50,810 nt of DNA. Source: Planifilum fulgidum (GTDB lineage Bacteria; Bacillota; Bacilli; Thermoactinomycetales; DSM-44946). Shown piece after piece: positions 13,885 to 29,091 of the stretch (positions within the stretch are counted from its first letter, which is position 1; every line of letters begins with the position of its first letter). The translations under genes and the position numbers were made by a program. The stretch spans positions 1 through 50,810 of the forward strand of contig NZ_FOOK01000024.1 in NCBI RefSeq assembly GCF_900113175.1, read 5' to 3'. A model generated the notes under the pieces. The model did no database searches. It was not told where the DNA came from and saw nothing but the letters and a program-made list of their open reading frames with translations.

Positions 13885-14077
13885 GGACTTTCGCTCCTCT
13901 CCCGTTTCCATCCGGTTTTCGCGTTTTCCCCATGGTCTTTCTTCTCTGCCGAAGCCTTCTCCTTGTGCGACGCCGCAAATTCCATAAATTGGTCTTCGCT
14001 CGTGCCCCCAACGATGTCATAAACATCCCTCCCGGTCCCTCGCCCGGGACGGCAAGATGCGGCTTCGAAGTGAGGCG

Positions 14078-15034
14078 TCACCGCCTCCAGGCGGCGAAAT
14101 GTTTCTCCACCTCTTCAAGGGTGGGCAAAGCCGTCATCGCCCCCTTGGCCGATACCGCCAGTCCGCCGGAAACCGCCGCAAAGGCCGCAAAATGCTCCAG
14201 CTCATCCAAAGAATAAGAGGACGGATCCGCTCCGGACAGGCTCAATCGGTAGAGAAAGCCGGAAACAAAGGCATCGCCGGCGCCCGTCGTGTCGACAACC
14301 TCGGCGGGGAAGGCCGGAACATGCCGGAGCCCTTCGCCATTGACGACCCAGCACCCCTTTGCCCCGAGGGTGACCAGGAGCGCCTTCAACCGGTATTTTC
14401 GACGGAAGGCGACGGCGGCCTCCGGAGTCCCCTCTCCCTCCAGAAACGCCAATTCGTCTTCCGACACTTTCGCGACATCCGCCTGATCCATCATCGCCGC
14501 AATCGATTCGTGCGCCCGCTTACGGTCCCCCCACAAATTCATGCGGATGTTGGGATCGAAGGAAACCGTCACTCCCCGGGCCTTCGCCCGACGGACCGCC
14601 TCAAGCGTGGCCGTCCGGGAAGGCTCGCCGATCAGCGAGATCGAACCGACATGAAGGATATGATACCGATGCAGGGGCACGGCTTCCACATCTTCTTTTC
14701 TCAAAAATCGGTCGGCACTCGGATCGATGTAAAATTCAAAAAAACGCTCCCCGGCGGAATCCAGTTCGACGAACACGAGCCCCGTCCTGGCCTGATCGGT
14801 TTGGGTCAGGTAGGCGGTTTCCACTCCGTAGCCCCGCAAGGTTTCGATGAGAAAGTTCCCCAGGATGTCCCGACCGACTTTTCCGACAAAGGCTGCGGGC
14901 GCCCCGAGCCGCGCGACTCCCACCGCCACGTTCGCCGGAGCACCCCCGGGACATTTTTGATAAGTTTGCTGGTCCTTATCCAGCGGAATCATGTCCACGA
15001 GGGCTTCTCCCAGGGTGAGGACTCCCTTGCCCAT
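14078..15034 (-). CDS. PfkB-family sugar kinase, probable fructokinase
   Basis: 318 residues; the ATG at 15034 follows AAGGAGGT. It starts MGKGVLTLGEALVDMIPLD, with PGGAPANVAVGVARLGAPAA as PfkB signature 1 and VDTTGAGDAFVSGFLYRL as signature 2, containing the catalytic Asp and anion hole. The size and GGAPANVA motif fit bacterial fructokinases. It would convert fructose made by the two upstream polyol dehydrogenases into fructose-6-phosphate. It is separated from them by 285 bp holding a small ORF and a candidate pseudoknot, so its translation may be regulated separately. Other ketohexoses cannot be excluded. Confidence 0.88.
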   Translation of the reverse strand: MGKGVLTLGEALVDMIPLDKDQQTYQKCPGGAPANVAVGVARLGAPAAFVGKVGRDILGNFLIETLRGYGVETAYLTQTDQARTGLVFVELDSAGERFFEFYIDPSADRFLRKEDVEAVPLHRYHILHVGSISLIGEPSRTATLEAVRRAKARGVTVSFDPNIRMNLWGDRKRAHESIAAMMDQADVAKVSEDELAFLEGEGTPEAAVAFRRKYRLKALLVTLGAKGCWVVNGEGLRHVPAFPAEVVDTTGAGDAFVSGFLYRLSLSGADPSSYSLDELEHFAAFAAVSGGLAVSAKGAMTALPTLEEVEKHFAAWRR

Positions 15035-15063
15035 GGGCGACCATACCTCCTTTCAAGAAGCAG

Positions 15064-15118
15064 CTGGGGAGGAACAAAGGCAGACCCGGTCCTCCCCAGC
15101 GTCACACAGGACCGGGTC
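15064..15118 (-). promoter_or_regulatory. Candidate H-type RNA pseudoknot upstream of the fructokinase RBS
   Basis: In the minus-strand transcript a perfect 10-bp stem forms from GACCCGGTCC (15118-15109) and GGACCGGGTC (15092-15083). The 3' part of its loop, CTGGGGA (15099-15093), is complementary to TCCCCAG (15070-15064) further downstream. Both pairings can coexist as a pseudoknot. Alternatively CTGGGGAGG and CCTCCCCAG make a competing 9-bp hairpin. The element ends about 13 nt before AAGGAGGT of the fructokinase. There is no T-run, so it is not a simple terminator. Confidence 0.5.
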
Positions 15119-15245
15119 CGCCTCCATCCCATTTTAAACGATCTGTCTCCCCCTTTCGAAGGCCGTTCAGACCGGAGCAGCCGACGGTTTTTTTCGGGGA
15201 GGCGCGGAGGCCCCTGCGCGAGGAACCGGCCCGTCGTTGTGCCAT
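15102..15245 (-). CDS. Possible 47-residue leader peptide
   Basis: An ATG at 15245 follows GGAAGGAG at good spacing in the gap between the second dehydrogenase and the fructokinase. It encodes 47 residues, very basic at the N-terminus (MAQRRAGSSRRGLRASPKK) and ending GGGPGPV. Its TGA at 15102 falls within the loop of the candidate pseudoknot, so ribosomes finishing it would unfold the first stem. It might therefore couple or gate kinase translation. No homologue is recognised, and the GC-rich composition means it could be chance. Confidence 0.35.
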   Translation of the reverse strand: MAQRRAGSSRRGLRASPKKTVGCSGLNGLRKGETDRLKWDGGGPGPV

Positions 15246-15319
15246 ATGCGCACTCCTTCCGGGAATCGGCGCCCGGCGCCGCCATTCCCTGTGCCGATCC
15301 CCAATCCGTCCCCGCCGTC

Positions 15320-16342
15320 TTAAAGCCCGGGACACACCAAAACCTTGATGTCTTCCGGGGGCTTCTTTTCCCGCATGTAGTCCGCGAAGGATTCGAGACC
15401 GATTTTTTTCGTCACCAGCGCCCCCACGTTCACCCGCTTCTGTTCGATCATCCACAGCGCCTGATAGAAATTGAACATCAGCGCCATGGAGCCGACATAC
15501 TGCCAGTCCTTGTGGTATATGTCGAAGGGATTGACGGAGATCCGCGCATCGGAGGGAGCCACGCCGAACTGCAGAAGGCGGGCACCGGGTCCGGCAAAAC
15601 GGAACATGCCTTCAATGACGGCCGGAATCCCGGTGGCATCCACCACAAGATCAAAACCGTCGGGATATCGGGACTCCAGGCGGCTTTCCAAAGATTCTCC
15701 GCCATGGTACACGGCGTCGGCACCCAATCTCTTCGCCGTCTCCAGTTTCTTTTCCGCGATATCCACCAGAACCACTTCGGAGGTTCCGCTCGTTTTCAAC
15801 GCCATGAGCAGCATCAATCCCATCGGGCCGCCTCCGAAGATCAATGCTCTTTCCCCGAATTTCGGCTGAATCCGGTTCAATGCATAGGCGACGCAGGACA
15901 GGGGTTCGATGAGCGCCCCTTCTTCAAAGCTGATTCCCTCCGGCAACCGGTACAAGTTTTTGGCCGGAACGCGGACATACTCGGCGAAAGCGCCGTTCAT
16001 CGTCACCCCGATCGCATTCCAGCGCTTGCAGTGATTCCAGCGATGGTTCCGGCAATGGACGCACGAGCCGCAGTAAACGGACGGATCGACGGCGACCCGT
16101 TCCCCCGGCGTCCATTCGTCGACGCCCTCCCCCACTTCATAAACGGTGCCGGAAAACTCATGCCCGCCGGCGATCGGATACGGAGAGATGAAATCCCCCT
16201 CGAGAATGTGATAGTCGGTCCCGCAAATCCCGCAGCACTCCACCTTCACGATCACTTCGTCGGGACCCGGTGACGGAATCTCCACTTCCTCCACCCTGAT
16301 TTGATGCGGGGAGACAAAAAGAGCCGCCTTCATCTTCGGCAT
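15320..16342 (-). CDS. Zinc-dependent alcohol dehydrogenase, polyol dehydrogenase-like
   Basis: 340 residues; the ATG at 16342 has AGGGAG upstream. Medium-chain dehydrogenase fold: catalytic-zinc residues in VECCGICGTDYH and GGHEFSG, a structural-zinc cysteine set CGSCVHCRNHRWNHC (four Cys), and a Rossmann motif FGGGPMGLMLLMAL with an acidic residue after beta2 (VLVDIAEKK), which favours NAD. Within the polyol operon it probably oxidises a hexitol such as mannitol, arabitol or sorbitol to a ketose. It differs clearly from the preceding dehydrogenase gene, so the two likely have distinct substrates. Confidence 0.88.
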   Translation of the reverse strand: MPKMKAALFVSPHQIRVEEVEIPSPGPDEVIVKVECCGICGTDYHILEGDFISPYPIAGGHEFSGTVYEVGEGVDEWTPGERVAVDPSVYCGSCVHCRNHRWNHCKRWNAIGVTMNGAFAEYVRVPAKNLYRLPEGISFEEGALIEPLSCVAYALNRIQPKFGERALIFGGGPMGLMLLMALKTSGTSEVVLVDIAEKKLETAKRLGADAVYHGGESLESRLESRYPDGFDLVVDATGIPAVIEGMFRFAGPGARLLQFGVAPSDARISVNPFDIYHKDWQYVGSMALMFNFYQALWMIEQKRVNVGALVTKKIGLESFADYMREKKPPEDIKVLVCPGL

Positions 16343-16402
16343 GTGAATTCACTCCCTTCGTGAATTCTCTTCAAGGTGCCGCAGGGGATCTCCTTCCCGG
16401 CT

Positions 16403-17476
16403 TCACTCCGGCAACCCGTTGGGATAGACAAACACCTTCACGCTTTTCTCCTTCTGCGTCCTTGCCCGTTCCAGGGCGTCACGGGTCCCTTCCAAGGGAT
16501 ACCGGTCGGTTACGAGTTCCCTGACGTCCGCCAAGCCGGAGGATAAAAACCGGATGGCCTGGGGATAGACGTTGGCGTAACGAAACACGCCGAAAATGTC
16601 GAGCTCCCGGTCGGCGATCAACGGCACATTCAGTTCGATCAGATCCTGCGGAGGGAGGCCGACGATCGAGAGTTTGCCTCCCCGCCGGACGGAAGCCAGC
16701 GCGGATTGGAGGGCCTTCGGATGACCCGCCGTCTCAAAGGCCACATCCACCCCTTCGCCGCCGGTGATTTCCCGGATCGCCTCCTCCGGCTGCCGTTCCA
16801 GGATGTGGACCGTGTGGGTGGCGCCCAATTTTTCCGCCGCCGCCAACCGCTTCGGCACCAAATCGGTTGCGATGATCGTGGATGCGCCAAAGGCTCTGGC
16901 CGCAACGACCGCCATCAGCCCGACAGGTCCCATGCCCATGATCGCCACCGTCGAACCGGGCGTCAATCCGGCGCGCCGGGCCGCGTGAATGCCGACCGAA
17001 AACGGCTCGATCAGCGCGGCCTCTTCGAAGGAAAGGTGATCCGGGATCGGATAAAGGAAATCCTCTCGATGTTTGATATACTGCACAAAGGCCCCGTCCA
17101 CCGGCGGTGTGGCCAGGAAGGAAACATCGGGACACAAATTGTACCGTCCTTGCTTGCAGTAATCGCAGGTTCCGCAGGGAACGCCGGGCTCGACGGCGAC
17201 GCGGTCCCCCACCTTCACCCGGGATACCCGCTCCCCCGTCGCCACCACCACCCCCGAACACTCATGGCCGAGGATGATCGGTTTTTCCACCACAAAGCGT
17301 CCGATCCTGCCGTGTTCGTAATAATGAACATCCGATCCGCAAACCCCGACCGCCATCACCTTGACGAGCACTTCGTTTTCGCCTACCTCCGGGACCGGCA
17401 GTTCCCGGATTTCGATTTCCCAAGGTTTGGTAAGCACCGCAGCCTTCATGACCTCCGGAATCGCTTCCCTGTTCAC
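16403..17476 (-). CDS. Zinc-dependent sorbitol/xylitol dehydrogenase-like protein
   Basis: 357 residues from a GTG at 17476 with GGAGGG 6 nt upstream. GVCGSDVHYYEHGRIG and LGHECSGVV are the zinc-site and substrate-site motifs of sorbitol/xylitol dehydrogenases (the CGSDVHYY motif is typical of that group). CGTCDYCKQGRYNLC is the structural-zinc loop, and MGMGPVGLMAV the nucleotide loop with Asp after beta2 (ATDLVPKR), implying NAD. It follows the permease gene by 28 bp. It probably converts sorbitol to fructose, or xylitol to xylulose; the fructokinase downstream favours fructose. Confidence 0.9.
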   Translation of the reverse strand: MNREAIPEVMKAAVLTKPWEIEIRELPVPEVGENEVLVKVMAVGVCGSDVHYYEHGRIGRFVVEKPIILGHECSGVVVATGERVSRVKVGDRVAVEPGVPCGTCDYCKQGRYNLCPDVSFLATPPVDGAFVQYIKHREDFLYPIPDHLSFEEAALIEPFSVGIHAARRAGLTPGSTVAIMGMGPVGLMAVVAARAFGASTIIATDLVPKRLAAAEKLGATHTVHILERQPEEAIREITGGEGVDVAFETAGHPKALQSALASVRRGGKLSIVGLPPQDLIELNVPLIADRELDIFGVFRYANVYPQAIRFLSSGLADVRELVTDRYPLEGTRDALERARTQKEKSVKVFVYPNGLPE

Positions 17477-17504
17477 CGCAATCCCTCCGTTTCCATTAAT
17501 GATT

Positions 17505-18338
17505 TCATTTCACGGCCCCCATCGACAGGCCGCGGACCAGGTATTTCCTCACAACCAGTCCGGCGATCACCATCGGCGTGATGATGACGGTTCCGGTGGC
17601 CATGGCCTGCCCCCAAGCGATGCCCTGCTGAGTGATCAACAGGGAGGCCGCCACCGGAATGGTTTGATTTTCGTGTCCGGAAAAGACGGAGGCGAAGAGG
17701 AAATCGTTCCAGGCAAACATCAAACACAGGATGCCGGTGGCCACCAGGCCCGGAGCGGCAGGCGGAATCACCACCCGCCAAAAGGCTTGAAACCGGCTGC
17801 ACCCGTCAATCATCGCCGCCTCTTCCAGATCGACGGGAACCTCCTTGAAGAAAATCATCATCATCCACAGCGCAAAGGGCAAATTGAACGTGGTATAGGC
17901 AAAAATCAACCCCGTCATCGTCCCGATGAGCCCCAGGTGGGTAAACATCAGGTAAAGGGGCAGCATCACGGCGGGGATGGGCGCCATGCGCGTGCTGATG
18001 ATCCAAAAGGAAATGTGCTTCTCCCCTTTAAACTTCCGACGGGCCAGGGCAAATCCCCCCAGCGTGCCCAACACCAGGGAAATCCCGGCGGAGATGACGG
18101 AAGCGATCACGCTGTTTGTCAGGTAGTGGAGGAATTTTCCCCGTTCGGAGAACATGTAGGCATAGGTGTCGAAATGGGGTTTGAAAAGAAATTTGGGCGG
18201 CATCGAAAACATGCCGGCCTGGGTTTTCAGGGAAGATAGCACCATCCAGAGGACGGGAAAGAGCGCCCATGTCAAAGCGATCCCCGCCAGGGCGTACAAA
18301 ACCAGGCCGATCGCCAATTTTCGAAAGCGCGGGGCCAT
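17505..18338 (-). CDS. Sugar/polyol ABC transporter permease, MalG type
   Basis: 277 residues, six membrane segments and the EAA loop EEAAMIDGCSRFQAFWRVVIPPAAP of CUT1 permeases. Its start abuts the stop of the first permease gene (TGAATG). Together with that subunit it forms the membrane channel for the polyol taken up by the upstream binding protein. No ATPase gene is in the operon, so it must use a shared MsmX/MalK-like ATPase coded elsewhere. Confidence 0.92.
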   Translation of the reverse strand: MAPRFRKLAIGLVLYALAGIALTWALFPVLWMVLSSLKTQAGMFSMPPKFLFKPHFDTYAYMFSERGKFLHYLTNSVIASVISAGISLVLGTLGGFALARRKFKGEKHISFWIISTRMAPIPAVMLPLYLMFTHLGLIGTMTGLIFAYTTFNLPFALWMMMIFFKEVPVDLEEAAMIDGCSRFQAFWRVVIPPAAPGLVATGILCLMFAWNDFLFASVFSGHENQTIPVAASLLITQQGIAWGQAMATGTVIITPMVIAGLVVRKYLVRGLSMGAVK

Positions 18339-19283
18339 TCATGCTTCCCCCTTCCGCATGAACCGGACAAACAGCTGTCCCAGGATGATCGTCACAAAGA
18401 GCATGGTCAGACCCAGGGCGGCGGCCGACCCGAAGTCCTGGAATCGAAAGGCCACTTCCATCAGGTGAAAGCCGATAATCTTGGTGGAGTCGGCGGGGCC
18501 GCCCTCGGTCGCGATTTTGATGGTGTCGACAAAGCGGAAAATGTCCATCATGCGAATCAGCAGCGCGAGGACGACCGTCCGGGAGATCAGCGGGAAGACG
18601 ACATGGATCAGCTTCCGCCAATAACCCGCTCCGTCCACTTCCGCCGCCTCCAGCACCTCCTCCTGAAGCGACTGCAAACCGGCGTACACGATGATGGTGA
18701 TCAGGGGCGACCACTCCCACACGTCCATGAGGATGATGGCGGGAAGGGCCGTGGAAACATCCCCCAAAATCTCGGTCTCCACGCCGATCAGCCGAAACAG
18801 CCACGCGTACAGGCCGTACGTCGAATTGAGCATGAACCGGCCCAGCAGCCCGACGACCACCGGGGCGACAAAGAGGGGAATCATCCACAAGGTCAATATC
18901 GCGTTTCTCGCCCGCGGAAGCTGATGGATCAGCAGGGCCATTCCGACCCCGACCGCCATTTCAAGGGACAAACCGCACAAGGCGTAAACCGCCGTGCGGC
19001 CCCAGGAGGCCCAGAACGTATCACTGGTGAAAACGTTTTTCCAATTTTTCAGCCCGTTGAATGCCGGTTCGTCGAAGGACAGCGTGAAATCCATCATGCT
19101 GGCATATATCATGTACATCAGCGGAAAGATGCTGATCATCGCCAGCAGCACCAGGGACGGAAGCAGCATCCAGAATTCCGTCGACCATTTTCCCGGCCCT
19201 TTTTTTCTTTGGACGCGAACCGACGGGCTCGCGTCCAAAAGCATCGGTTGCTGATATCCGTTCTCCTTGATGTTCAGGCTCAT
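18339..19283 (-). CDS. Sugar/polyol ABC transporter permease, MalF type
   Basis: 314 residues with a long cytoplasmic N-terminus (about 35 residues) and six membrane helices. The EAA loop reads EEVLEAAEVDGAGYWRKLIHVVFPL. It belongs to the CUT1 MalF-like family and is partner of the next permease. It lies 27 bp after the binding-protein gene. Confidence 0.92.
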   Translation of the reverse strand: MSLNIKENGYQQPMLLDASPSVRVQRKKGPGKWSTEFWMLLPSLVLLAMISIFPLMYMIYASMMDFTLSFDEPAFNGLKNWKNVFTSDTFWASWGRTAVYALCGLSLEMAVGVGMALLIHQLPRARNAILTLWMIPLFVAPVVVGLLGRFMLNSTYGLYAWLFRLIGVETEILGDVSTALPAIILMDVWEWSPLITIIVYAGLQSLQEEVLEAAEVDGAGYWRKLIHVVFPLISRTVVLALLIRMMDIFRFVDTIKIATEGGPADSTKIIGFHLMEVAFRFQDFGSAAALGLTMLFVTIILGQLFVRFMRKGEA

Positions 19284-19310
19284 CGGTCTCCCTCGATTCC
19301 TCTCAGCGCT

Positions 19311-20855
19311 TCAGTTTCCGGTCGCCTCATCCGATTTCTCCGCGATCGCTTTCACCGCTTGTTCCGGACTTTGTTTGCCCGCGATCATCTTGGACAGTTC
19401 GGTGAAAATGTAGGTGTCGATCTGCGGCCACTGGGGAATTTTCGGACGCATATAGGTGTTTTCCGGTTTCCACGCTTCCAGCACCGCTTTCATCGAAAGC
19501 AGGTTCGGCATTTCCTCGGCTTCTTTCGTCCCGGCCTCCATCCCCCTTTTCACGTCGGGAAGCGCATATACGGAGGAACGGGTCGGCGTCGAACCGCCCT
19601 GCTCGGATTTCAAAATCATGTACTGGGTTTGCGGAGACGTGGCCCACACCAGGAACAGCCAGGCCGCTTTCTTTTCCTCGTCGCTGGCGTATTTGTTGAT
19701 GCCGATGCCGGTTCCGCCAAAGATGTTCGCGCTTCTGACCTTCCCCTTCGGCAGAATCGTCCAGCCGACCTTTCCGGCCACCTTGGACTTTTCCCCGCTT
19801 TCAAACATGGCGGAAAACTCGTGCCACTCGGGAGCCATGGCGATTTCGCCGGCGGCGAAGGCCTCGGCCAATCCGTTCCAATCCCAGGAGGTGCTTCCCG
19901 GCGCCGCCTCCTTCAACAGCTTGTTGTAAAATTCGGCCGACTCAAGGGCTTCTTTGGAGGTCATCGCGGATTTTCCGGGATTGCTTGTCCCGATCGTGCC
20001 CACATCCTTTTTCTCGAAATAATCTCCCCCGTTGGCGGCCAGAATGTTGCTGAAATCGCACATCAATGAATCGTACTGCTTGGCCTGGTGACCCGTTCCG
20101 TATTTCACCTCGGTGATGACGCCCTCTTTCACTTTTTGATTGATCCATTTGGCAATCTCGTAATATTGATCCCAGGTCATGCCGGGCCGGGGGGTCCAAT
20201 CATACCCCTTTTCCTTCATGAACAAATCCTTGTATTTCTCGAACACATCCTTCCGATAGGCCAAAACCATCGTCGGATTGTCGTAGGGCAAAGCCAGCAG
20301 TTGCTCCTTGTTTCCCATGTGCCCGAGGGCTTCCAACTGGACGGGGATGAAATCCTCCACTCCCCCGGGAATATGGGGCATGGTCGGTTCGTTGTTGAAC
20401 AGGTTCAAATCCACGAAGTGCTGGGAATACTTGGCGAGAATCTGGTAAGGATCCGCATAGATGACGTGGTATTTTGAGGATTTGGCATTGAAATCGAGGC
20501 TCACCTTCTCGACGACCGTGCCCAGGTCGCTCTGTTCGATGTTGACCTTGATGCCCGTCACCTTTTCAAACTTGTCGATATTGGCGGCAATGGCCGAAGA
20601 AGGCGGGGTGTTCTCGGAAATGACATTGATCTGGATTCCCTTGAACTGTTGCCAATCAAAGCCTTCAGGCGCCTGGATTTTGGGCAGCCCTTCCACCCAT
20701 CCCTCAAAGGGGGCGTCGACCAATTTGTCGGGATTGATCTGGTCGGCGTTCTTGCTCTTCGTATCGATGCTTTCTCCCCCCGAAGAGCACGCCGTCGCCA
20801 ACATGACAAGCGCCAAAAGCAATGCGCCTAAGCGGAAGGCTCTTCGCTTCTTCAT
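19311..20855 (-). CDS. Polyol/sugar-binding lipoprotein of a CUT1 ABC importer
   Basis: 514 residues. The lipoprotein signal is MKKRRAFRLGALLLALVMLA followed by TACSSGG, with lipidation at the Cys. The mature protein has the family-1 solute-binding pattern (KVTGIKVNIEQSDLGTVVEK; LADPYQ-like regions; EIAMAPEWHEFSAMFESGE; NIFGGTGIGINKYASDEEKK). The start has AGGGGGGAAG 4 nt upstream. Dehydrogenases and a fructokinase downstream point to a hexitol such as mannitol or sorbitol. First gene of an operon of at least five genes, with a cre-controlled promoter 40 nt upstream. Confidence 0.9.
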   Translation of the reverse strand: MKKRRAFRLGALLLALVMLATACSSGGESIDTKSKNADQINPDKLVDAPFEGWVEGLPKIQAPEGFDWQQFKGIQINVISENTPPSSAIAANIDKFEKVTGIKVNIEQSDLGTVVEKVSLDFNAKSSKYHVIYADPYQILAKYSQHFVDLNLFNNEPTMPHIPGGVEDFIPVQLEALGHMGNKEQLLALPYDNPTMVLAYRKDVFEKYKDLFMKEKGYDWTPRPGMTWDQYYEIAKWINQKVKEGVITEVKYGTGHQAKQYDSLMCDFSNILAANGGDYFEKKDVGTIGTSNPGKSAMTSKEALESAEFYNKLLKEAAPGSTSWDWNGLAEAFAAGEIAMAPEWHEFSAMFESGEKSKVAGKVGWTILPKGKVRSANIFGGTGIGINKYASDEEKKAAWLFLVWATSPQTQYMILKSEQGGSTPTRSSVYALPDVKRGMEAGTKEAEEMPNLLSMKAVLEAWKPENTYMRPKIPQWPQIDTYIFTELSKMIAGKQSPEQAVKAIAEKSDEATGN

Positions 20856-21113: not shown

Positions 21114-22328
21114 TCACCGGATCAGCGAATAAAAACTGCTTCCGTTCTCCGGCGGAGGGACGGAAAAGAAATCAGCAACGGTGGCCGCGATGTCGGACAA
21201 GGTGTCCCGCTCCCCCACATCTCCGCCCCGCAGGGACTTGCCGTAGGCAAGCAGGAACGTTTTTTCCCGGGTGTGCCCGCTGTGACCGATGGTCGGATCG
21301 TTGCCGTGGTCGGCGCTGATCATCAGCAGATCCTCCTCCGACATCCCCTTGAGGATGACGGACAAAGCCTTGTCCACTTCCATGATCTTTTGCGCATACC
21401 GGTCCACATCCTGGGCGTGTCCGGCCAGATCCGTCTCCTGCACCGTGGCCGCAATCAGCCCCTCTTCCACCCAATCCATGGCCTCGATGACGGACCGCAT
21501 CACCCGGTCCGTTTCCACCGCCGGAATCCGCCGGGCCCCTTCGCAGGTGATCACATCCTGCATCTTTCCGATCAGGCAGACCTCTTTCCCCGACTCGACG
21601 AGAATGCTGCTGACCTGGGTCTTCGGATTGACGCCGTACCCCATATGGCGAACCTGATACCCGCGCCCATAGACGCCCGATTTCGGCGAATTCACCCCGA
21701 CGAGCCCGTCGGAGCGCCGCTCGACGCTCTCCCGGATCCGCTCGGGGGAAACCCCCTTCCCGCCCAGGGCGATGACGCGGCTCACTTTCACCGCCGAGCG
21801 GACAATCTCGCCGATCCTCAGGACCTCGTCGAAGGAAATGCGGTCCAGCGGCGCCGTCACGTTGTAAATCTGGCCGTAGTCGGTTTCGATGTTGTCGGCG
21901 ATCACCACGAGATCATTGACCAGAAGATAGGGCAGCGCCGGATCGGGGACCTCCACTTGGTATCCCCGCTGGGCAAGGGCAGCGCGAACCGTCTCCATAT
22001 TTTTCGCGAAGGGCTCCCTCCGGGGTTTTCGGGGAGCGGTGCCCATGATTTCCTGGTGCCCCGCATAACTGTCGGCTCCGTCATGCTGCAGGCGCAGGGT
22101 GCCGAATCCCGCCCTGGGTTCGCCGGCGGCCGGTTTCAACCGGGGATGGCGCAAAATGCGGTTGATCCCCAGCCATTCCAGCTGCGGAATCCGGATCTCC
22201 TTCGCCCGATCCAGGATGTGATAAAAGGTGTTGGCTCCCCGGTCCTGCTTGCGCGACGGAAAGATGTCGTCCATCGCTCCGACTCCGAGGCTGTCCAAAA
22301 TCAGGAGGATCGCTCGCCGTCTGCCCAT
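21114..22328 (-). CDS. yhfW: Phosphopentomutase-like metalloenzyme (YhfW family)
   Basis: 404 residues, alkaline-phosphatase superfamily, DeoB branch. Metal-binding elements are visible in order: LLILDSLGVGAMDD at the N-terminus, a GADSYAGHQEIMGTAP segment at the phospho-acceptor region (DeoB has a Thr-containing variant), TDLAGHAQDVDRY, and SADHGNDPTIGHSGHTREKT. These would hold two Mn ions for phosphoryl transfer. It matches E. coli YhfW rather than true DeoB, whose operon partners (nucleoside phosphorylases) are missing. It starts inside the last 28 nt of the preceding yhfX gene with GGAGGCGG upstream. Last gene of the operon; likely a phosphomutase of an unknown phosphorylated intermediate. 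Confidence 0.85.
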   Translation of the reverse strand: MGRRRAILLILDSLGVGAMDDIFPSRKQDRGANTFYHILDRAKEIRIPQLEWLGINRILRHPRLKPAAGEPRAGFGTLRLQHDGADSYAGHQEIMGTAPRKPRREPFAKNMETVRAALAQRGYQVEVPDPALPYLLVNDLVVIADNIETDYGQIYNVTAPLDRISFDEVLRIGEIVRSAVKVSRVIALGGKGVSPERIRESVERRSDGLVGVNSPKSGVYGRGYQVRHMGYGVNPKTQVSSILVESGKEVCLIGKMQDVITCEGARRIPAVETDRVMRSVIEAMDWVEEGLIAATVQETDLAGHAQDVDRYAQKIMEVDKALSVILKGMSEEDLLMISADHGNDPTIGHSGHTREKTFLLAYGKSLRGGDVGERDTLSDIAATVADFFSVPPPENGSSFYSLIR

Positions 22329-23515
22329 TTTTCCGCCTCCTCCGTCAACGGTTTTCCCAAGCTGTCGTAGATTGCCTTCAGCGACGGCCGCCCCCGCTGG
22401 ATTCCCTCCACCAGCGCCACCTGACTGCGCGTGACAAAGATTTGGGTGCGAAAAGCGAAAACCGCCGTGTCCCCCACTTCGATCCGGTGACCCGTCCGAT
22501 CAAGCGCCCCGTAGTAATCGATGAACTGGGGCGGCGTCTCCCGCACCCGAACCCGGCGGTCCATCATCCCGGGAAACGTCTTCCCGACGATCGCCTCCCT
22601 CGCCCGGGAGCGCCGGTAAAACCCGCCCCCGTACACATAGGCGCGCTCCCCGTCCAGATGGGAAACTTCGCTCACATACACCATGGCCGGCAATTCGGGC
22701 TGATCCCCCCGCTGGTGCAGGGGGGTCGTCCCGGTCAACGCATGGCCCGGCTCGCCGTGGGTCGCCCCCAACTCCTTCAATATCGGAATGGTGGAGACGC
22801 ACGTGGCGCTGGGCATGTTGATCTGCTCCAGGGAGATCCCCAGCTCCTCCGACAGCCGCTCGGCGCAGCGGAGGACCGTATGGGCGTTGGCCAGGGGCTG
22901 GACATCGCCGCGGTCCGGATCGTACAGCAAACAGGGAAATCCCGTGACTCCCGCGATGCGGACGCCGGGCAAGCGAAGGATTTCCCGGGCGGCCTCGATC
23001 AACCCGCTTTCCCGGAATCCGCCCTGCTGCCCCTCGTACAAGACATCCTCGGGCCCGACCACCCGAAGCAACAACTTTTGCGTTCGGCCCATCCTTTGGG
23101 CCACTCGGGAAATTTGCGCCGCCTTTTCCACGGAATAGACGGTCACCACTTCCGGCCGGTAGGAAAGAATCTCCTCAATCATCCCGGAGGGGATCTGCAC
23201 CAGGTGGCCCACATTTCCCAAGGGGATGCCCGACCGGCCCAGCAGGCGGGCTTCCCAGGGGTCGACGGCCACCGCACGCGGAATGCCGCTGGCGGCGATC
23301 AACCGGGCCACTTCGGGATTGCGGCCGATTTGTTTTGTCATCATGTAGAGCCGGATTCCGGCCCGGGCCGCCGCCCGGGCCAGGAGGCGGGCGTTGTAGG
23401 CAATCGCATCCAAGTCCAACACGTAGGTGTTCGGGGGAATGGTGCCGCTTCTGTGCAAGTCCACCGCCGCTTCAACCAGTGCCGGATTTCTCTTCAAGGT
23501 AACCGATAGAAACAT
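22301..23515 (-). CDS. yhfX: Alanine-racemase-like fold III PLP enzyme (YhfX family)
   Basis: 404 residues. The TIM-barrel start TYVLDLDAIAYNARLLARAA and PLP-lysine Lys61 in LYMMTKQIGRNP are those of fold-type III PLP enzymes. HGEPGHALTGTTPLHQRG and the C-terminal domain (DTAVFAFRTQIFVTRSQVAL) match YhfX. The start abuts the yhfS stop (TAAATG) with GAGGTG upstream. It probably racemises or epimerises an amino acid or related amine, but unlike Alr its substrate is unknown. Together with yhfS it forms a pair of PLP enzymes of different fold in one operon. Confidence 0.85.
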   Translation of the reverse strand: MFLSVTLKRNPALVEAAVDLHRSGTIPPNTYVLDLDAIAYNARLLARAAARAGIRLYMMTKQIGRNPEVARLIAASGIPRAVAVDPWEARLLGRSGIPLGNVGHLVQIPSGMIEEILSYRPEVVTVYSVEKAAQISRVAQRMGRTQKLLLRVVGPEDVLYEGQQGGFRESGLIEAAREILRLPGVRIAGVTGFPCLLYDPDRGDVQPLANAHTVLRCAERLSEELGISLEQINMPSATCVSTIPILKELGATHGEPGHALTGTTPLHQRGDQPELPAMVYVSEVSHLDGERAYVYGGGFYRRSRAREAIVGKTFPGMMDRRVRVRETPPQFIDYYGALDRTGHRIEVGDTAVFAFRTQIFVTRSQVALVEGIQRGRPSLKAIYDSLGKPLTEEAEKWADGERSS

Positions 23516-24628
23516 TTACACCTCGCCTCTATCTTCAAGATCGCTCAGCGCCTTTCTCAAGATCTCGATCACCAGATCGGCCCCCGAGCGCATCGGATTG
23601 ATGCGGACAGCCCTTTCCGCCAGCTCCGGACGGCTTTCCAGGAAACTGCCGGACACCCGGTACACCATGGGAAGAATCTCATAACGGGATTCCGCCCCGA
23701 CCGGATAGATCGCCGCGCCGTGCCGCTCACAGGCCCGGATCAGAGCGGGGGCGATCGGCCGCCTCAACTCCGCGATCACATTTTTGGATTGGGCATTGGT
23801 GATGTACGCCCGTTTCACTTCCGGAACGACTCCGGCGTTGAGCAGCTTGCAAAGCCGCTCCGTCTGTTCGTTTTGCACCGCGAAGGCGACCGGCGCCAGC
23901 ACGAGGGAGCGAAGAAGCTCCATCGCTTCGAACCCCTGCACCTGCCCGCCTCCGGAATAATTCCGCTCGTGAATTTTCCGGATTCCCTCCCCTTTCCCGA
24001 CGACGATCCCGATCCCGGGAGGACCGAGCAACTTGAACCCGGAGAAACAGGAATAGCAGGCCCCCAATTCGACACCGATTCGCGGCACCTTCAGGGCGGT
24101 GTAATTGTCGTCCACGACGATGGGGAGATCGGGCCGCTCGGCGCGCACCCGCCGGATCACATCGCCGAGATCGTAATCATCCGTCGGCTGCTGACGGGAA
24201 TGCTGGACATAAAAGAGGCGGCATTCCCTATGTTTCTTCAAAGCGTCCCGCAACCGGTCCGGATCGTTGTAATCGACGGGCACCGGATTGAGCCCCATGA
24301 GCCGCACCGTCTCCTGCGTGGTCTTGTACATCGGCCCCGTGTGGGCGAAGAAGGCATCCCCCGGCTCGAGGAGGACGCTCAGCGCGGAGCGGATCGCCCC
24401 GGTGCCGGCGCCGCGGACGAGGGCGCAGGCTTCCGCCCGAAAAAACCTTGCCAGCACCCGCTCCACCTTTTCCGTCTGGAGCGGGCGGCCCGGTCCGGGA
24501 ACAACACCCACATCCCCCTGCTGAAAGAACTCCCGCCCCGTGAATTCCTCGGCAATCAAGGCGGTCAACTCAAATTGTTTCTGCTTCGCCTGTTGGATGT
24601 TCATCGTCGTCAATACCGGATCGCCCAT
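23516..24628 (-). CDS. yhfS: Fold I PLP-dependent enzyme (YhfS family)
   Basis: 370 residues; the ATG at 24628 follows AGGAGG at 8 nt. It is an aminotransferase/Cys-Met-metabolism-like fold: RGAGTGAIRSAL (cofactor phosphate loop), IVVDDNYTALK with Asp173/Asp174 near the pyridine nitrogen, and the Schiff-base Lys199 in CFSGFKLLGPPGIG. The family is close to E. coli YhfS, whose reaction is not known to me. A lyase, transaminase or selenocysteine-synthase-like reaction is possible. It is 12 bp after php. Confidence 0.85.
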   Translation of the reverse strand: MGDPVLTTMNIQQAKQKQFELTALIAEEFTGREFFQQGDVGVVPGPGRPLQTEKVERVLARFFRAEACALVRGAGTGAIRSALSVLLEPGDAFFAHTGPMYKTTQETVRLMGLNPVPVDYNDPDRLRDALKKHRECRLFYVQHSRQQPTDDYDLGDVIRRVRAERPDLPIVVDDNYTALKVPRIGVELGACYSCFSGFKLLGPPGIGIVVGKGEGIRKIHERNYSGGGQVQGFEAMELLRSLVLAPVAFAVQNEQTERLCKLLNAGVVPEVKRAYITNAQSKNVIAELRRPIAPALIRACERHGAAIYPVGAESRYEILPMVYRVSGSFLESRPELAERAVRINPMRSGADLVIEILRKALSDLEDRGEV

Positions 24629-24640
24629 CGCAACAACCTC

Positions 24641-25555
24641 CTAAAAGGACAGGAAACGGCGCGGATTCTCCACCAACATCGTCTCGATCTCCCGCCTGGA
24701 CACGCCGCCATCCAGCAATCTCGGGATGAACCGGGTGAAAAGGTATTCATATCCGAAACCGCCGTTGACCTTCAGATAGGATTTCTTCGTGATGTCGCAG
24801 GACAGCATCAGCTGTCCGACATACCCCCTGTCCAGCAGATACAACAGATCGGACAGCCGCTCCGACTCGGGGCGGTAGTTGTTCTTGCCGATGGTGTCGA
24901 ACTGGATGTAAACCCCCGCCTTCAACATCGTTTCATACTCCGCGCGGTTTCCGTTTAAATCCTGGTGGCCGATGGAGACCTTGGAAAGGTCCGCCCCCAA
25001 TTCGTCAAACAACCTCACCTGCACAGGCCCCAGTGTCCCCAGCTCGCAATGGGTGCTGAGGGGAGCTCCCGTCCGCTTTTGGGCCCGGGCGGCGGCCCGG
25101 AACACCTTCTCCTCCTCGGCGGTCATCTCGTTCAGGCTGCTGCCGATTTCGGCGATGATTCCGGCCCTCACCCCGGTATCCCCGATTCCCTCCGTCAGTT
25201 CCCGCACGAACAGCTCCTCGATTTCCTCTTCGCTTTGCTCTTTTACTTCTTCCGGGTAATAGGTCTGCTTGTAGTAGCCGGTGGCCGCCACAATCGGAAG
25301 GCCGTGCCGTTCGGACATCCGCCGCAGGGCTTCCACATCCCGTCCCATGCCGCGATTCGTCACCTCGACGATTCCCCCGCAACCCGCCGCCTTCAGCCCC
25401 TCCAACTCCCGGTCCATTTCCTCCGAATCCGACAGGATGGGGTCGTCATCCCGCCGGATTCGGGACAGGTCCAGAACCAGGTGTTCGTGAATCATGGTCG
25501 GACCAAAAGATTCCGGGGAAATGTCCCCGGTGACCGTGCGAATTGTTTTCGTCAT
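24641..25555 (-). CDS. php: Phosphotriesterase-homology protein (Php)
   Basis: 304 residues, amidohydrolase TIM barrel. Metal ligands are visible as His23/His25 (TMIHEHLVLD), Glu136 (IIAEIGSS) as the bridging residue, His169 (LSTHCE), His197 (SIGHQD) and Asp254 (LSCDITKKSY). Having Glu instead of the carbamylated Lys of true phosphotriesterase is the feature of E. coli Php. The start has GGGAAGGGATCGG before it. Members of this family with known activity are lactonases or esterases. Its neighbours suggest it opens a lactone or hydrolyses a phosphoester in an unknown catabolic route. Confidence 0.88.
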   Translation of the reverse strand: MTKTIRTVTGDISPESFGPTMIHEHLVLDLSRIRRDDDPILSDSEEMDRELEGLKAAGCGGIVEVTNRGMGRDVEALRRMSERHGLPIVAATGYYKQTYYPEEVKEQSEEEIEELFVRELTEGIGDTGVRAGIIAEIGSSLNEMTAEEEKVFRAAARAQKRTGAPLSTHCELGTLGPVQVRLFDELGADLSKVSIGHQDLNGNRAEYETMLKAGVYIQFDTIGKNNYRPESERLSDLLYLLDRGYVGQLMLSCDITKKSYLKVNGGFGYEYLFTRFIPRLLDGGVSRREIETMLVENPRRFLSF

Positions 25556-25594
25556 ATCCGATCCCTTCCCGATGAAATATTTTCCGCCTTGCCC

Positions 25595-26890
25595 TTATTG
25601 CGGCGGCGTCATCAATCCGGCGAAGACCAGCAGATTCGCGAGGATCCCGACGGCGACGGCGCCGACCGGCCCGACGGCCATGCGGACGATCGGCCGCCCC
25701 GCCGCTTCGTTCAGCAGATAAAGGCCCGCGATGAAGAAAAATCCGAAGCCGGGAGCCATCGCGTTGGCGGCGTTGGCGCCGCCGATCAGCAGAGCCACCT
25801 CCAGAATGCGGGTCATCGCGGTGCGGATGTTCTCGCCGGACTCCCTCACTCCCGGATACTTATCCAGCAGGCGGGCGATCGAACTTAAAAGCAACACTTC
25901 GATCATGATCACGATCGCTCCGCCAATGCCCGCCACCCAGACATTGGGCGCCAACAGACCCACGACGAACACCAGCGTAAATCCGACCGGTCCGTACACC
26001 CCGGTGGCGATGGCCGTGCTGGCCACCAGCGGGATGAATCCGATGGCCCGGGCCAGGGCCGCGATCGCCGCATCCGTTTGTTGCCCTTTGGCGAGCAGGT
26101 TCAGGGAGATGGGATCGCCGGCGATGATCAGCAGATTGGTCGCCATGGAGATCAATCCGCCCATCACCATGAAATAGACCACATGTTTCCGGATCCGGCT
26201 GACCCGGTCGCTGAAAACGGCGGCCAGATCCACCCCTTCGCTGACTTCCCCGGACTTCTGCCGGACGGCGAAGACAAACAGAAAGATCATGCCGACAATC
26301 AGCGCAATCCCTTCCTGGTTCAAGGTCACGGCCGTACCCTGAAAGGTCAGCAGGCCGCTTTCATTGAGCCAGACCGCCAGCTGCCTCACCAAGACGGCGG
26401 CCAAAAAGGTCCAGACGCCTTTGGCCACGCCAAACTGGAAAGCCACCGCCAAGGCGGGAAACACCATGAACATGACAACCACGGGAGCCCCGACTTCCCC
26501 CATCGGATCCAGAACGTTAACCGGAAGGCTTTCGAACAGCTTGACAAACCCCTCCAGTCCCATCAGCAGCGCCGCGCCGTATGCCCCGCCGAGCAGGGCG
26601 GCCACCGGGGTTCCCCACCGGTTGTTCGGCGTCGCCAGGCCGATGATGTCGGTCCCCAGCAGAATGCTGTGAATCAGGATGATGCTGGCGGTCAAAGTGA
26701 AGGGGATGCCGAATCCGACCACCAGACCGAACCCCATCGCGAAGGCCGTCAGCGCCAGCTCCCGCCGGCTTAGGCGCCCTTCGATGTGTTCCGGCACGAT
26801 CGGCCGCAATCCGTCGTTGAAAACGGCGATCCCCCGGTTTGCCAACACGGCCGCCACGGCCCCCACCAGCGCAACGATGATCATATTCAT
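25595..26890 (-). CDS. yhfT: Multi-spanning membrane transporter (YhfT family)
   Basis: 431 residues from the ATG at 26890 (AAGGTGAG at 7 nt); a GTG four codons upstream is less likely. It has eleven or twelve hydrophobic segments. Conserved-looking loops are NRGIAVFNDGLRPIVPEHIEGR after TM1 and GLATPNNRWGTPVAALLGGAYG in the centre. It matches the YhfT family of unknown specificity, presumed importer for the operon's substrate. The topology and loops loosely recall EIIC-type permeases, an impression only. A 122-nt gap with a GC-rich hairpin (26954-26968) separates it from yhfU. Confidence 0.82.
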   Translation of the reverse strand: MNMIIVALVGAVAAVLANRGIAVFNDGLRPIVPEHIEGRLSRRELALTAFAMGFGLVVGFGIPFTLTASIILIHSILLGTDIIGLATPNNRWGTPVAALLGGAYGAALLMGLEGFVKLFESLPVNVLDPMGEVGAPVVVMFMVFPALAVAFQFGVAKGVWTFLAAVLVRQLAVWLNESGLLTFQGTAVTLNQEGIALIVGMIFLFVFAVRQKSGEVSEGVDLAAVFSDRVSRIRKHVVYFMVMGGLISMATNLLIIAGDPISLNLLAKGQQTDAAIAALARAIGFIPLVASTAIATGVYGPVGFTLVFVVGLLAPNVWVAGIGGAIVIMIEVLLLSSIARLLDKYPGVRESGENIRTAMTRILEVALLIGGANAANAMAPGFGFFFIAGLYLLNEAAGRPIVRMAVGPVGAVAVGILANLLVFAGLMTPPQ

Positions 26891-27012
26891 GAAAACACTC
26901 ACCTTCTTCCGGGATTTTCGGATTACCCGACGTTGCCAACCGTCCGCTTATCCGGCCGCCCGGCGGCCGCATGCCAAAAAGCGCCGAACCGCACCGCTTC
27001 GGAGAATTCCTG

Positions 27013-27375
27013 TCAGGTCAGTTCCCGGATCGCCTTCATGATCATCGGGACGGCCAGCTCCTTGTGATCGGCGGTGAAGCCGAAGGCTTTCTTCCCCGCC
27101 CGGACCGCTTCGCGGATTTTCTCCTCATCGGGCTTGCGCCCCGGCATTGAGACCGTTTCGCATTTGTCCCGGCCGATGACGGCGATCGCCATGGCCAGCG
27201 CCCCGCCTCCGCCGGTGTGACAAGCCCCGATGTAATAATCGGCCTTGCCCGTTTTCACCGCCATCGCCGCCTCCAGATCCGACCGGATCATCGTCTCCAC
27301 CCCCTCCGGACCGTGTTTTCGGACCAGCTCCTCCACCTCTTTCTTGTCCACCTGGCCGCCGATCACAATCTTCAC
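27013..27375 (-). CDS. yhfU: DUF2620 protein (YhfU family)
   Basis: 120 residues from a GTG at 27375 (GGAGGGG upstream). MKIVIGGQVDKKEVEELVRK starts a Rossmann-like strand-helix unit. KADYYIGACHTGGGGALAMA carries Cys52 followed by a glycine-rich loop; the last part is KKAFGFTADHKELAVPMIMK. It matches DUF2620/YhfU, always seen near YhfT. The Cys plus Gly loop resembles, without proof, the phospho-cysteine loop of PTS EIIB proteins. Confidence 0.82.
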   Translation of the reverse strand: MKIVIGGQVDKKEVEELVRKHGPEGVETMIRSDLEAAMAVKTGKADYYIGACHTGGGGALAMAIAVIGRDKCETVSMPGRKPDEEKIREAVRAGKKAFGFTADHKELAVPMIMKAIRELT

Positions 27376-27381
27376 GTTTTC

Positions 27382-27744
27382 TCACCCCTCCGTTTTCTGC
27401 AAAAGGGAAATATAGTGAATGATCAGATACCTTTTTTCCGCATCCGGCAAAGCCTTGCCCCACTGGCGCTCAATCCAATCGACTTCTCCGACCGCTTCCC
27501 GAAACCGTGAAGACGCTTCCACTTCCGCGAACAATTCCTTCGGAGGCGGATCGATTTCCTCACGGCGCGCAAGGCGCGTCAAAGCGGACGCGAGGTGCGT
27601 GGAAAACATGTTCACTTGTTCCGCCGGAAAGCGGCCGTGTCTGTCCGTCAGCCGCTCCACCGCCCGTTGCGCGATGTCCGCCGCCTCGGGGGTCACCACC
27701 CCGCCCTCGATCAAAATCTTGAATCGTTCCTTCAAACCATTCAC
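27382..27744 (-). CDS. yhfY: Stand-alone PRD-domain protein (YhfY family)
   Basis: 120 residues from a GTG at 27744 (TTGGAG at 8 nt); the longer frame to 27807 runs through a palindrome. It is a single PTS regulation domain: MFSTHLASALTRLARREE and YLIIHYISLLQ carry the two histidines that PRDs use as phospho-acceptors. It has no DNA-binding domain. It lies six bp before yhfU. It may modulate the YhfZ regulator or the YhfT/YhfU transporter according to PTS phosphorylation. Confidence 0.8.
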   Translation of the reverse strand: MNGLKERFKILIEGGVVTPEAADIAQRAVERLTDRHGRFPAEQVNMFSTHLASALTRLARREEIDPPPKELFAEVEASSRFREAVGEVDWIERQWGKALPDAEKRYLIIHYISLLQKTEG

Positions 27745-27758
27745 TCTGAACACTCCAA

Positions 27759-27776
27759 TATACAGGATACTGTATA
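27759..27776. repeat. Palindrome upstream of yhfY
   Basis: TATACAG and CTGTATA form perfect 7-bp arms around a 4-bp centre, in the 133-bp gap between yhfZ and yhfY and ending 2 nt before the TTGGAG of yhfY. The AT-rich surroundings (TTATTATACAG) could include a second promoter. It may be an operator for YhfZ, or an RNA hairpin that hides the yhfY start. Confidence 0.5.
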
Positions 27777-27877
27777 ATAACGGAAAGAAAACTTTCTCCT
27801 CACACATCCTATTCCCCGCCGCTCGTCAAAAGACCGGAGGGGAGTGCGTTTCCTTCACCGCACAAGGGCACCCCCCG

Positions 27878-28810
27878 TCAATAGCTGGCGAAACGGCGGC
27901 CCTGTTCCACATCCTCCTGTACGGCCCGAATCCGGTCCACCGAAAGATCGGCCAGCCTCTGTTCCACGATCTTTCCCTTCTCCTGATCGACAACCAAAAC
28001 TGCCTCGCTCACCTTCTCGGAAAGTTCCCGGGCCCTTTCCGACCGAAACGGCCCGCGTCCGAACCGATCGGCGTACCGGAGCTCGTCCTTGTTCCAGACG
28101 GCGGCATCGATTTTTCCTTCCTTCAGCATGTCGAGCAGCTGCATGTAGTTCACTTCGACCAGTTCCACATCCAAACCGCGGCACTCATAGGACGTAAGGA
28201 GATATTGATCCGCCGAGGTAAAATCGATGCCGACGCGCATCCCGTCGCGGATGGTCGTTTCGCCGGGATCGGCAAAGAAAATTTCGTGACCGGATACGTA
28301 GGAGCCGGGACCCAACCGCTTCACGATGTGCAATCCCGGACGCTGCTGTTTGTGCAATTCCGCCGCCAAACCGGAAACCACCGCAAAATCGTATCGGCCC
28401 GATTGCAGGGCGTCGATGCGATGGGTTGAGCCGCGCATGAAGGCCAGATTAAAGGGGACATTGATTTCCCGAAAGGCCTCCACCAGACCGGTGGCCAGCC
28501 CCTCATACTTGCGCGAATAAGGAAGGGGCATGACCCCGACCACGTGGGACATCCCGGCGATTTCCCACAGGGCCTGATCGTCCTTGTGACTCAAGAAGGT
28601 TCCCAAATGGCCCCGGGACTCCAGCCGAATCGCGCCCATCTCCTCCAACAGCCGCAGCGCCCCCTGCACCGTCCCCCTTCCCAGGGAAAGCTCACCGGCG
28701 AAATCGCTGATCCTCGGAATGCGCTCACCCGGCTTGACGGACAGGAGACGACGGGCGATCTCCCTCGCCGCCAACCCGTTTTTGGTATACATCCGATCCA
28801 ACAACGCCAT
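27878..28810 (-). CDS. yhfZ: HTH regulator with substrate-binding-like domain (YhfZ family)
   Basis: 310 residues. The N-terminal winged helix is GntR-like: RIPRISDFAGELSLGRGTVQ, then LRLLEEMGAIRLESRGHLGT. The C-terminal 200 residues look like a periplasmic-binding-type sensor (VVGVMPLPYSRKYEGLATGL; SGRYDFAVVSGLAAELH; GMRVGIDFTSADQYLLTSYE; LKEGKIDAAVWNKDEL), as in YhfZ. It would sense a small ligand and control the operon it heads. Its promoter carries an inverted repeat just after the -10, consistent with autorepression. First gene of the eight-gene unit. Confidence 0.86.
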   Translation of the reverse strand: MALLDRMYTKNGLAAREIARRLLSVKPGERIPRISDFAGELSLGRGTVQGALRLLEEMGAIRLESRGHLGTFLSHKDDQALWEIAGMSHVVGVMPLPYSRKYEGLATGLVEAFREINVPFNLAFMRGSTHRIDALQSGRYDFAVVSGLAAELHKQQRPGLHIVKRLGPGSYVSGHEIFFADPGETTIRDGMRVGIDFTSADQYLLTSYECRGLDVELVEVNYMQLLDMLKEGKIDAAVWNKDELRYADRFGRGPFRSERARELSEKVSEAVLVVDQEKGKIVEQRLADLSVDRIRAVQEDVEQGRRFASY

Positions 28811-28829: not shown

Positions 28830-28888
28830 TACAAAATACGGTTTTTTGTATTCACTTCGAATATACCATTCCCCGCGCTGGCATGCAA
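28830..28888 (-). promoter_or_regulatory. Promoter and operator of the yhf-like operon
   Basis: On the minus strand the -35 is TTGCAT (28888-28883), the spacer exactly 17 bp and the -10 TATATT (28865-28860). Immediately after, TACAAAA (28850-28844) and TTTTGTA (28836-28830) form perfect 7-bp arms with a 7-bp spacer, covering about +3 to +23. This is the position for a repressor, most simply YhfZ itself. Confidence 0.72.
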
Positions 28889-29057: not shown

Positions 29058-29091
29058 AAAAAAATGCCGACCTTCCTTCCGAAGGTCGGCA
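29058..29091 (-). terminator. Terminator of the thioredoxin-reductase-like gene
   Basis: A 10-bp perfect stem (TGCCGACCTT with AAGGTCGGCA, 29065-29074 and 29082-29091), a 7-nt loop and a run of seven T on the minus strand, 15 nt after the gene's stop. Confidence 0.88.

Follow-up and report, generated by a model that had tools for sequence, protein, structure and literature searches.

The closest described relative of the locus studied here is the yhfZYXW-php-yhfUTS operon of Escherichia coli K-12 (b3376-b3383). The operon occurs in more than nine of every ten complete E. coli genomes (5,014 of 5,426 carry at least 80% of the cluster) and in many endospore-formers, and our search of the open literature returned no functional paper or substrate for yhfSTUWXYZ, DUF2620 or php. 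A second related arrangement is the operon type EF_0829-EF_0839/AHA_3910-3917 (TIGR03577-TIGR03583, DgaE/DgaF-like; hereafter the sister operon), which likewise combines a PRD protein and a small YhfU-like protein with membrane proteins, an amidohydrolase and a pyridoxal phosphate (PLP)-dependent lyase. We analysed a 50,810-nucleotide stretch of the Planifilum fulgidum genome (contig NZ_FOOK01000024.1, positions 1 to 50,810; the window), in which a first-pass annotation had recognised eight yhf/php genes. The window's cluster is a typical member of this known, uncharacterised operon. Like its E. coli counterpart it holds all eight families on one strand, and the YhfT and YhfU orthologues of the two are 40-41% identical; the E. 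coli operon differs in its gene order and in that it adjoins the frl operon and has no neighbours of the Gram-positive type.

Composition, gene order and co-inheritance

The eight families form one complete, co-directional block at 21114-28810 on the minus strand of the window, as had been annotated, and each gene product matches its Yhf family by profile. In the order of transcription, preceded by the terminator that marks the upstream limit of the yhf unit, the features are:

29065..29091, minus strand: strong terminator of the preceding gene, an 11-pair stem followed by 7 T
27878..28810, minus strand: yhfZ, regulator with a GntR-like HTH_41 domain and a YhfZ C-terminal binding domain (PF14503 267 bits, PF14502 70 bits, NF041241 372 bits with a cut-off of 260)
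27382..27807, minus strand: yhfY, single PRD domain without a DNA-binding part (PF00874 27.9 bits, cut-off 23)
27013..27375, minus strand: yhfU (DUF2620), RpiB/LacAB-like predicted fold with invariant Cys52 (PF10941 169 bits)
25595..26902, minus strand: yhfT, polytopic membrane protein, presumed transporter (PF10797 582 bits)
24641..25555, minus strand: php (yhfV), metal hydrolase of the phosphotriesterase (PTE) family with Glu at the bridging position (PF02126 287 bits)
23516..24628, minus strand: yhfS, fold-type I PLP enzyme (PF22475, YhfS-like_C, 144 bits)
22301..23515, minus strand: yhfX, PLP enzyme with an alanine-racemase-type barrel (PF21279, YhfX-like_C, 112 bits; PF01168 58 bits)
21114..22328, minus strand: yhfW, phosphopentomutase-like metalloenzyme of the alkaline phosphatase superfamily (PF01676 104 bits, NF009049 543 bits)

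The yhfX and yhfW genes overlap by 28 base pairs (bp), yhfS and yhfX abut, and the remaining gaps measure 6 bp (yhfY-yhfU), 12 bp (php-yhfS), 39 bp (yhfT-php), 70 bp (yhfZ-yhfY) and 110 bp (yhfU-yhfT); the real start of yhfY probably lies downstream of the listed ATG.

Gene order was compared among 115 loci: the window, E. coli, 33 loci drawn from the even samples and, out of named genomes, the 80 nearest relatives. Five genomes entered this set twice, and the lineage of the window is over-represented among the 80 relatives. The relative order Z-Y-U-T-P-S-X-W (P, php), counted also where a gene at one end was missing or a single gene was added, was present in 98 of the 115 loci and, once a degenerate locus is excluded, in 27 of 33 loci from the even samples plus the window. 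Other loci show Z-P-S-W-X-A-Y-U-T, Z-S-X-W-Y-U-T-P-A (A, a ninth gene described below), Z-Y-U-T-S-P-X-W or the E. coli type. The window's order, which had been singled out as special, is the one most often met in Bacillota, and it is E. coli that departs from the rule. For E. coli MG1655 the order given in the annotation, Z-Y-X-W-php-U-T-S, is correct; describing the difference from the window as a swap of two blocks is inexact because php also shifts relative to U-T. Because complete clusters show several orders, order is no defining feature of the yhf/php operon. Among the loci, Y-U-T is the most stable sub-block.

The genes travel together. YhfT scored above its cut-off in 12 of 398 genomes of a phylum sample and in 23 of 399 genomes of a class sample, and a YhfT relative is encoded at no fewer than 455 genome loci; the window's family is made up of three genomes from a single genus, each of which has YhfT (in one case as a contig-end fragment). 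Among the 399 class genomes, 21 had both YhfT and YhfS, two had YhfT only, none had YhfS only and 376 had neither, a pattern that excludes chance (Fisher p ~5e-33, with genomes treated as independent and relatedness uncorrected). One of the two YhfT-only genomes lacks php and yhfS and the other holds a fragment, and YhfT was adjacent to YhfS in every genome with YhfS. Across 33 evenly sampled loci, YhfX, YhfW, YhfU and YhfY were each present in 33, YhfZ and YhfS in 32 and Php in 31. This near-perfect co-occurrence in other genomes supports the earlier proposal that the eight genes are one co-inherited functional unit.

Several loci depart from the standard content. L080 carries a second Y-U-T block upstream of its complete cluster, the presumed transport genes being partly duplicated there. 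At the clusters of L075, L076, L106, L122, L124 and L125 no yhfW follows yhfX, and in five of these six a PBP4B-like gene is found there. In L082, L087 and L088, yhfZ is preceded at a distance of 68-94 bp by a same-strand gene for a GlcD-like flavin adenine dinucleotide (FAD) oxidase whose score falls short of the GlcD cut-off.

Predicted folds and enzyme families

YhfU had been assigned, with YhfT, to an importer. In an AlphaFold2 model computed from 72 relatives (pLDDT, the predicted local distance difference test, 96.6), its best Foldseek matches are instead without exception isomerases of the RpiB or LacAB type (probability 1.00, TM ~0.66), a fold family that includes galactose-6-phosphate isomerase (4lfk). 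VIA-align gave Z scores of 9.0-14.1 against 23 RpiB/LacAB entries, the top alignment (Z 14.1) having a root-mean-square deviation of 2.1 over 111 residues, and the next match was enzyme IIB (EIIB; 3czc, Z 8.2) of the phosphotransferase system (PTS). Cys52, invariant in 114 sequences, lies in a C-x-[TS]-G-x-G loop and aligns with the catalytic cysteine of RpiB. A two-sequence YhfU profile also ranked RpiB first, at no significance, with the invariant Cys aligned to the RpiB cysteine. Because YhfU does not reach membership of Pfam LacAB_rpiB (PF02502; 3 of 72 members match, best E 0.062), we file it as RpiB-like in fold and not as an RpiB. Given this predicted fold, YhfU is therefore probably no transport subunit, and the top matches of both Foldseek and VIA-align disfavour it as part of an importer. 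The YhfT model (pLDDT 87.7, predicted TM score 0.84) is helical throughout; it has no match in the PDB at E<=0.001 (best probability 0.16), and VIA-align reached a best Z of 6.2 over 78 residues, with no convincing solved structure or known transporter fold. With its many helices, YhfT may plausibly act in transport.

We also considered that YhfY, YhfU and YhfT might constitute a PTS-like phosphorylating importer, in which the cysteine of YhfU would carry phosphate in the manner of EIIB, YhfY would relay it from HPr and YhfT would be the membrane part. The stability of the Y-U-T block would fit such a device, as would the PRD domain of YhfY, in which the His of the first PRD motif is invariant in 113 sequences, and the pairing of a PRD protein, a YhfU relative and membrane proteins in the sister operon. 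Genes for HPr (beside the cluster in four clustered loci and in L128) and enzyme I (EI; in three), in loci from different families, point the same way, and EIIB is the first structural match of YhfU outside the RpiB group. However, YhfU aligns clearly better with RpiB/LacAB (Z 9-14) than with EIIB (Z 8.2), and the YhfU cysteine sits at the RpiB position and outside the first-strand P-loop, where EIIB proteins have theirs. The YhfT model has no convincing match to an enzyme IIC (EIIC) structure, and HPr or EI adjoins the cluster in a minority of loci only. We regard this importer as distinctly improbable.

The catalytic assignments of the annotation fared better. Two PLP enzymes of different fold are indeed encoded. 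YhfS has a PLP-type lysine in the motif FSxFKLLGP (invariant in 112 of 112 sequences) and, after a solved structure of YhfS itself (4j8l, E 4e-103), is nearest to methionine gamma-lyases (E 1.6e-11) and related carbon-sulphur lyases, and YhfX, with 4kbx (YhfX; E 2.6e-101) as its solved relative, has an alanine-racemase-type barrel and keeps Lys61 in 113 of 114 sequences. An assignment of YhfS as a DgaE-type ammonia lyase was rejected; the profile similarity is weak (E 0.0013, probability 19%) and the methionine gamma-lyases are nearer. These relationships bear on a route in which an unusual amino acid, D- or modified, would be imported, racemised by YhfX and subjected to elimination or transamination by YhfS, with the sugar-enzyme relatives recruited for other phosphorylated substrates. 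Both PLP enzymes would suit it, and PBP4B-like peptidase relatives adjoin 15 loci; it leaves YhfW, YhfU and the repeated recruitment of NagB (glucosamine-6-phosphate deaminase, see below) unexplained, and we consider it unlikely.

Php is a metal-dependent hydrolase with a Glu bridge, as had been noted: it belongs to the PTE family, its best solved relatives are the E. coli PHP structures 4lef and 1bf6, its H-E-H metal ligands are kept in 112 sequences and Glu occupies the bridging position in 112 of 113. YhfW is phosphopentomutase-like, in line with the annotated phosphomutase. It passes NF009049 (cut-off 254 bits), which NCBIfam names phosphopentomutase, and matches phosphopentomutase structures at E 3e-30. 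At the position that aligns with the phosphopentomutase nucleophile (Thr85 in the Bacillus cereus enzyme), 106 of 107 YhfW sequences have a hydroxyl residue, though not always Thr (73 Thr, 33 Ser), the window's being Ser. Hidden Markov models (HMMs) placed the genes in their Yhf families and not among true DeoB, Alr or lactonase proteins, with YhfW at 140.6 bits against a cut-off of 341.2 for the DeoB equivalog TIGR01696.

A pentose-phosphate route could account for this pair of proteins, since YhfW resembles phosphopentomutase and YhfU resembles RpiB, two enzymes that work one after the other in the breakdown of pentoses. The operon would then degrade a riboside or amino-pentose: once Php and the PLP enzymes had removed the rest of the molecule, YhfW would turn a pentose 1-phosphate into its 5-phosphate, which YhfU would isomerise to a ketopentose phosphate. 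A nucleoside hydrolase adjoining the cluster in L075 and L076 would agree with this. On the other side, YhfW scores far under the DeoB cut-off, the fold family of YhfU also includes galactose-6-phosphate isomerase, and the NagB, NamZ and PBP4B-like neighbours point to hexosamines; we judge the pentose route to have a low probability, on a par with the amino-acid route.

A candidate operator and a ninth gene

Upstream of yhfZ we identified a palindrome that is a probable YhfZ operator, with YhfZ as the presumed binding protein:

28836..28851, minus strand: candidate YhfZ operator ATAC-N8-GTAT (ATACAAAAAACCGTAT), 25 bases before the yhfZ ATG (coordinates computed from the motif match)

The palindrome occurs upstream of yhfZ in 44 of 107 loci, the window included, against 0.58 expected, and with A/T on both flanks in 43 of 107 against 0.24 expected. 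Its spacing is nearly always 8, spacings of 4-7 being found in no locus and those of 9-12 in 1-2. The site was not found upstream of the E. coli operon. A first candidate, TACAAA-N-TTTGTA, was present in only three loci and was superseded by ATAC-N8-GTAT. No Rfam riboswitch match was found within the window.

A ninth gene, absent from the E. coli cluster, encodes a protein of ~370 residues that matches the amidase signature weakly (PF01425, 28 bits against a cut-off of 27) and accompanies 41 of the 115 loci (for example L044:8158-9273, minus strand, and L061:6474-7580, plus strand). The protein keeps K68, S118 and S142 (numbering of the L061 open reading frame; 98-100% conserved) in the arrangement of the amidase triad, with 24 residues between the two serines. 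The gene most often lies in the interval between yhfT and php and elsewhere in the arrangements P-A, S-A-X or A-Z. It was found in 12 of 32 yhf genomes, each match adjoining the yhf cluster, and in eight of 398 phylum genomes, each of them a YhfT genome (p ~3e-14), in a search that scored few candidates per genome first, so that distant copies could be missed. To judge by these comparisons of sequence, the ninth gene is a cluster-exclusive yhf component without a family name.

Neighbouring genes and a proposed amino-sugar route

The gene for NagB (TIGR00502 above cut-off) lies within 7 kb of the cluster in 17 of the 115 loci; it is contiguous and co-directional with yhf in 10 of the 115 and lies inside the operon in L087 and L105. 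In the even sample, NagB was encoded within 8 kb of YhfT in 5 of 32 genomes, from five families, where ~0.3 are expected (p ~1e-5). In several of the genomes searched, the cluster NagB is a second copy beside one elsewhere. A NagB tree needs 10 changes of the yhf-linkage label, at least 7 of them forced by supported branches, and the link between NagB and yhf therefore arose, or was lost, many times. Among other neighbours, the PBP4B-like proteins belong to PF00144, NamZ adjoins L055, L075 and L076, and a NagZ-like glycoside hydrolase of family 3 and a BshB1-like deacetylase adjoin a few loci. The annotation had not noted the operator, the ninth gene or the NagB and PTS neighbours, of which only the operator is visible in a single window.

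Flanking regions vary. At L055:1179-7386, genes for an ATP-binding cassette (ABC) sugar transporter, a BshB1-like deacetylase and a NamZ-like protein lead directly into a complete yhf operon. In the window, the region 14078-20855 on the same strand encodes a solute-binding protein, two ABC permeases, two zinc dehydrogenases and a PfkB kinase, with no ABC ATPase gene seen among the scanned genes; transporter matches to this cassette elsewhere are only 23-29% identical. We rejected it as part of the yhf unit: its ABC-transporter gene is separated from yhfW by 258 bp, and the congener L042 has other genes there. A PTS EIIC/EIIB protein and a PRD/EIIA transcription regulator, at 10343-13911, are likewise separate from the yhf unit.

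Because of the recurrent NagB linkage, the NamZ, PBP4B-like, EI and HPr neighbours, the resemblance of YhfU and YhfW to sugar-phosphate enzymes and the parallel of the sister operon, we tentatively propose, at somewhat less than an even chance, that the yhf genes, under regulation, serve to take up and degrade a compound of the amino-sugar type; the serious rivals are a pentose route, an amino-acid route and an unrelated substrate. What the comparisons show is the gene content, the co-inheritance, an operator-like motif, predicted folds, conserved residues and the recurrent NagB link; the reactions, their order, transport, regulation by YhfZ and the substrate are what we infer. Of the substrates that the annotation had entertained (amino-sugar, amino-acid or phosphono type), the neighbourhood evidence favours the first. 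YhfZ would repress the operon from ATAC-N8-GTAT until a small metabolite binds and releases repression, YhfT would import the substrate, most likely an amino-sugar-type compound that is perhaps derived from the cell wall, and YhfY would make the system responsive to PTS phosphorylation. The cluster amidase, where present, and Php would cleave amide and ester or lactone bonds, YhfX would invert the amino-bearing carbon and YhfS would eliminate or transfer there, YhfW would move or remove phosphate and YhfU would interconvert an aldose and a ketose phosphate. The end point would be an amino-sugar phosphate, open to deamination by NagB, through which the products join central metabolism.

Several observations weigh against this proposal. 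YhfU has no conserved Asp-His pair in its first loop, after the first strand, so that it need not be an active isomerase; the likeness of YhfW and YhfU to pentose-phosphate enzymes would better fit a pentose; and YhfS is closer to methionine gamma-lyase than to an amino-sugar-acid lyase. NagB is missing from the surroundings of most yhf loci, no gene flanks the cluster in all of them, and the genome of the window, which is 99.99% complete, yields no match to NagB and none to the cluster amidase at E<=1e-20; because NagB is lacking there, it is no obligatory step. The NagB linkage could also reflect a general co-location in hosts that group nag genes, or NagB could serve a co-occurring nutrient and not the yhf product. 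It is conceivable, though doubtful, that the NagB, PBP4B and HPr neighbours are incidental and that the substrate is something else entirely, beyond the reach of these comparisons. That no neighbour is universal, that the window's genome has no NagB and that the window's downstream ABC cassette is not shared with its congener would all agree with this, but the NagB linkage is above chance in the even sample and arose repeatedly.

The amino-sugar route can be taken one step further, into a speculation to which we give very little weight: yhf might be a PTS-linked system of a new kind for a peptidoglycan-derived amino sugar, with YhfT as a transporter of new fold, the RpiB-fold YhfU acting with it, the amidase opening a substrate amide (e.g. 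spore-cortex muramic-acid lactam) and the product entering via amino-sugar phosphates. The analysis adds new handles on the operon, namely the RpiB-like fold of YhfU, the probable YhfZ operator, the exclusive ninth enzyme and the recurrent NagB link; together, they replace an 'unknown pathway' with a short list of amino-sugar-type compounds.

Compared with known systems, YhfU is like the RpiB/LacAB isomerases in predicted fold and invariant cysteine, and it differs in its PF02502 score and in the Asp-His pair. YhfW shares with phosphopentomutase DeoB the superfamily, the metal-site pattern and a Ser or Thr where the nucleophile aligns; it differs in scoring under the DeoB cut-off and in that the residue before Gly-His is variable. 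The sister operon is present in two genomes of the window's taxonomic order (L157:3736-11390 and L158:7193-14008), where it encodes a PRD regulator, an amidohydrolase, a small PRD protein, an SFCGS protein, DUF4312, DUF4311, DUF4310, a DgaE-type lyase and a DgaF-type aldolase. The SFCGS protein is a YhfU relative (YhfU HMM E 4.5e-6, hhalign E 1.1e-5; PF14272 is matched by 54 of 72 YhfU members, best E 1.8e-6). The sister operon differs in its DUF4310-4312 membrane proteins and 2-keto-3-deoxy-6-phosphogluconate (KDPG)-type aldolase and in having no YhfZ, YhfT, YhfX or YhfW; conversely, DUF4310-4312, SFCGS, DgaE and DgaF are absent from the window's yhf block, and the window's genome has no SFCGS match. 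The name DgaE derives from D-glucosaminate-6-phosphate lyase, an amino-sugar acid enzyme, which is a parallel to yhf and no proof. The yhf clusters of other Bacillota (e.g. L042, L055 and L075-L154), many of which have the ninth, amidase-signature gene or NagB next to them, while the window has neither, agree with the window's cluster in content, generally in order (98 of 115 loci) and often in the operator motif (44 of 107).

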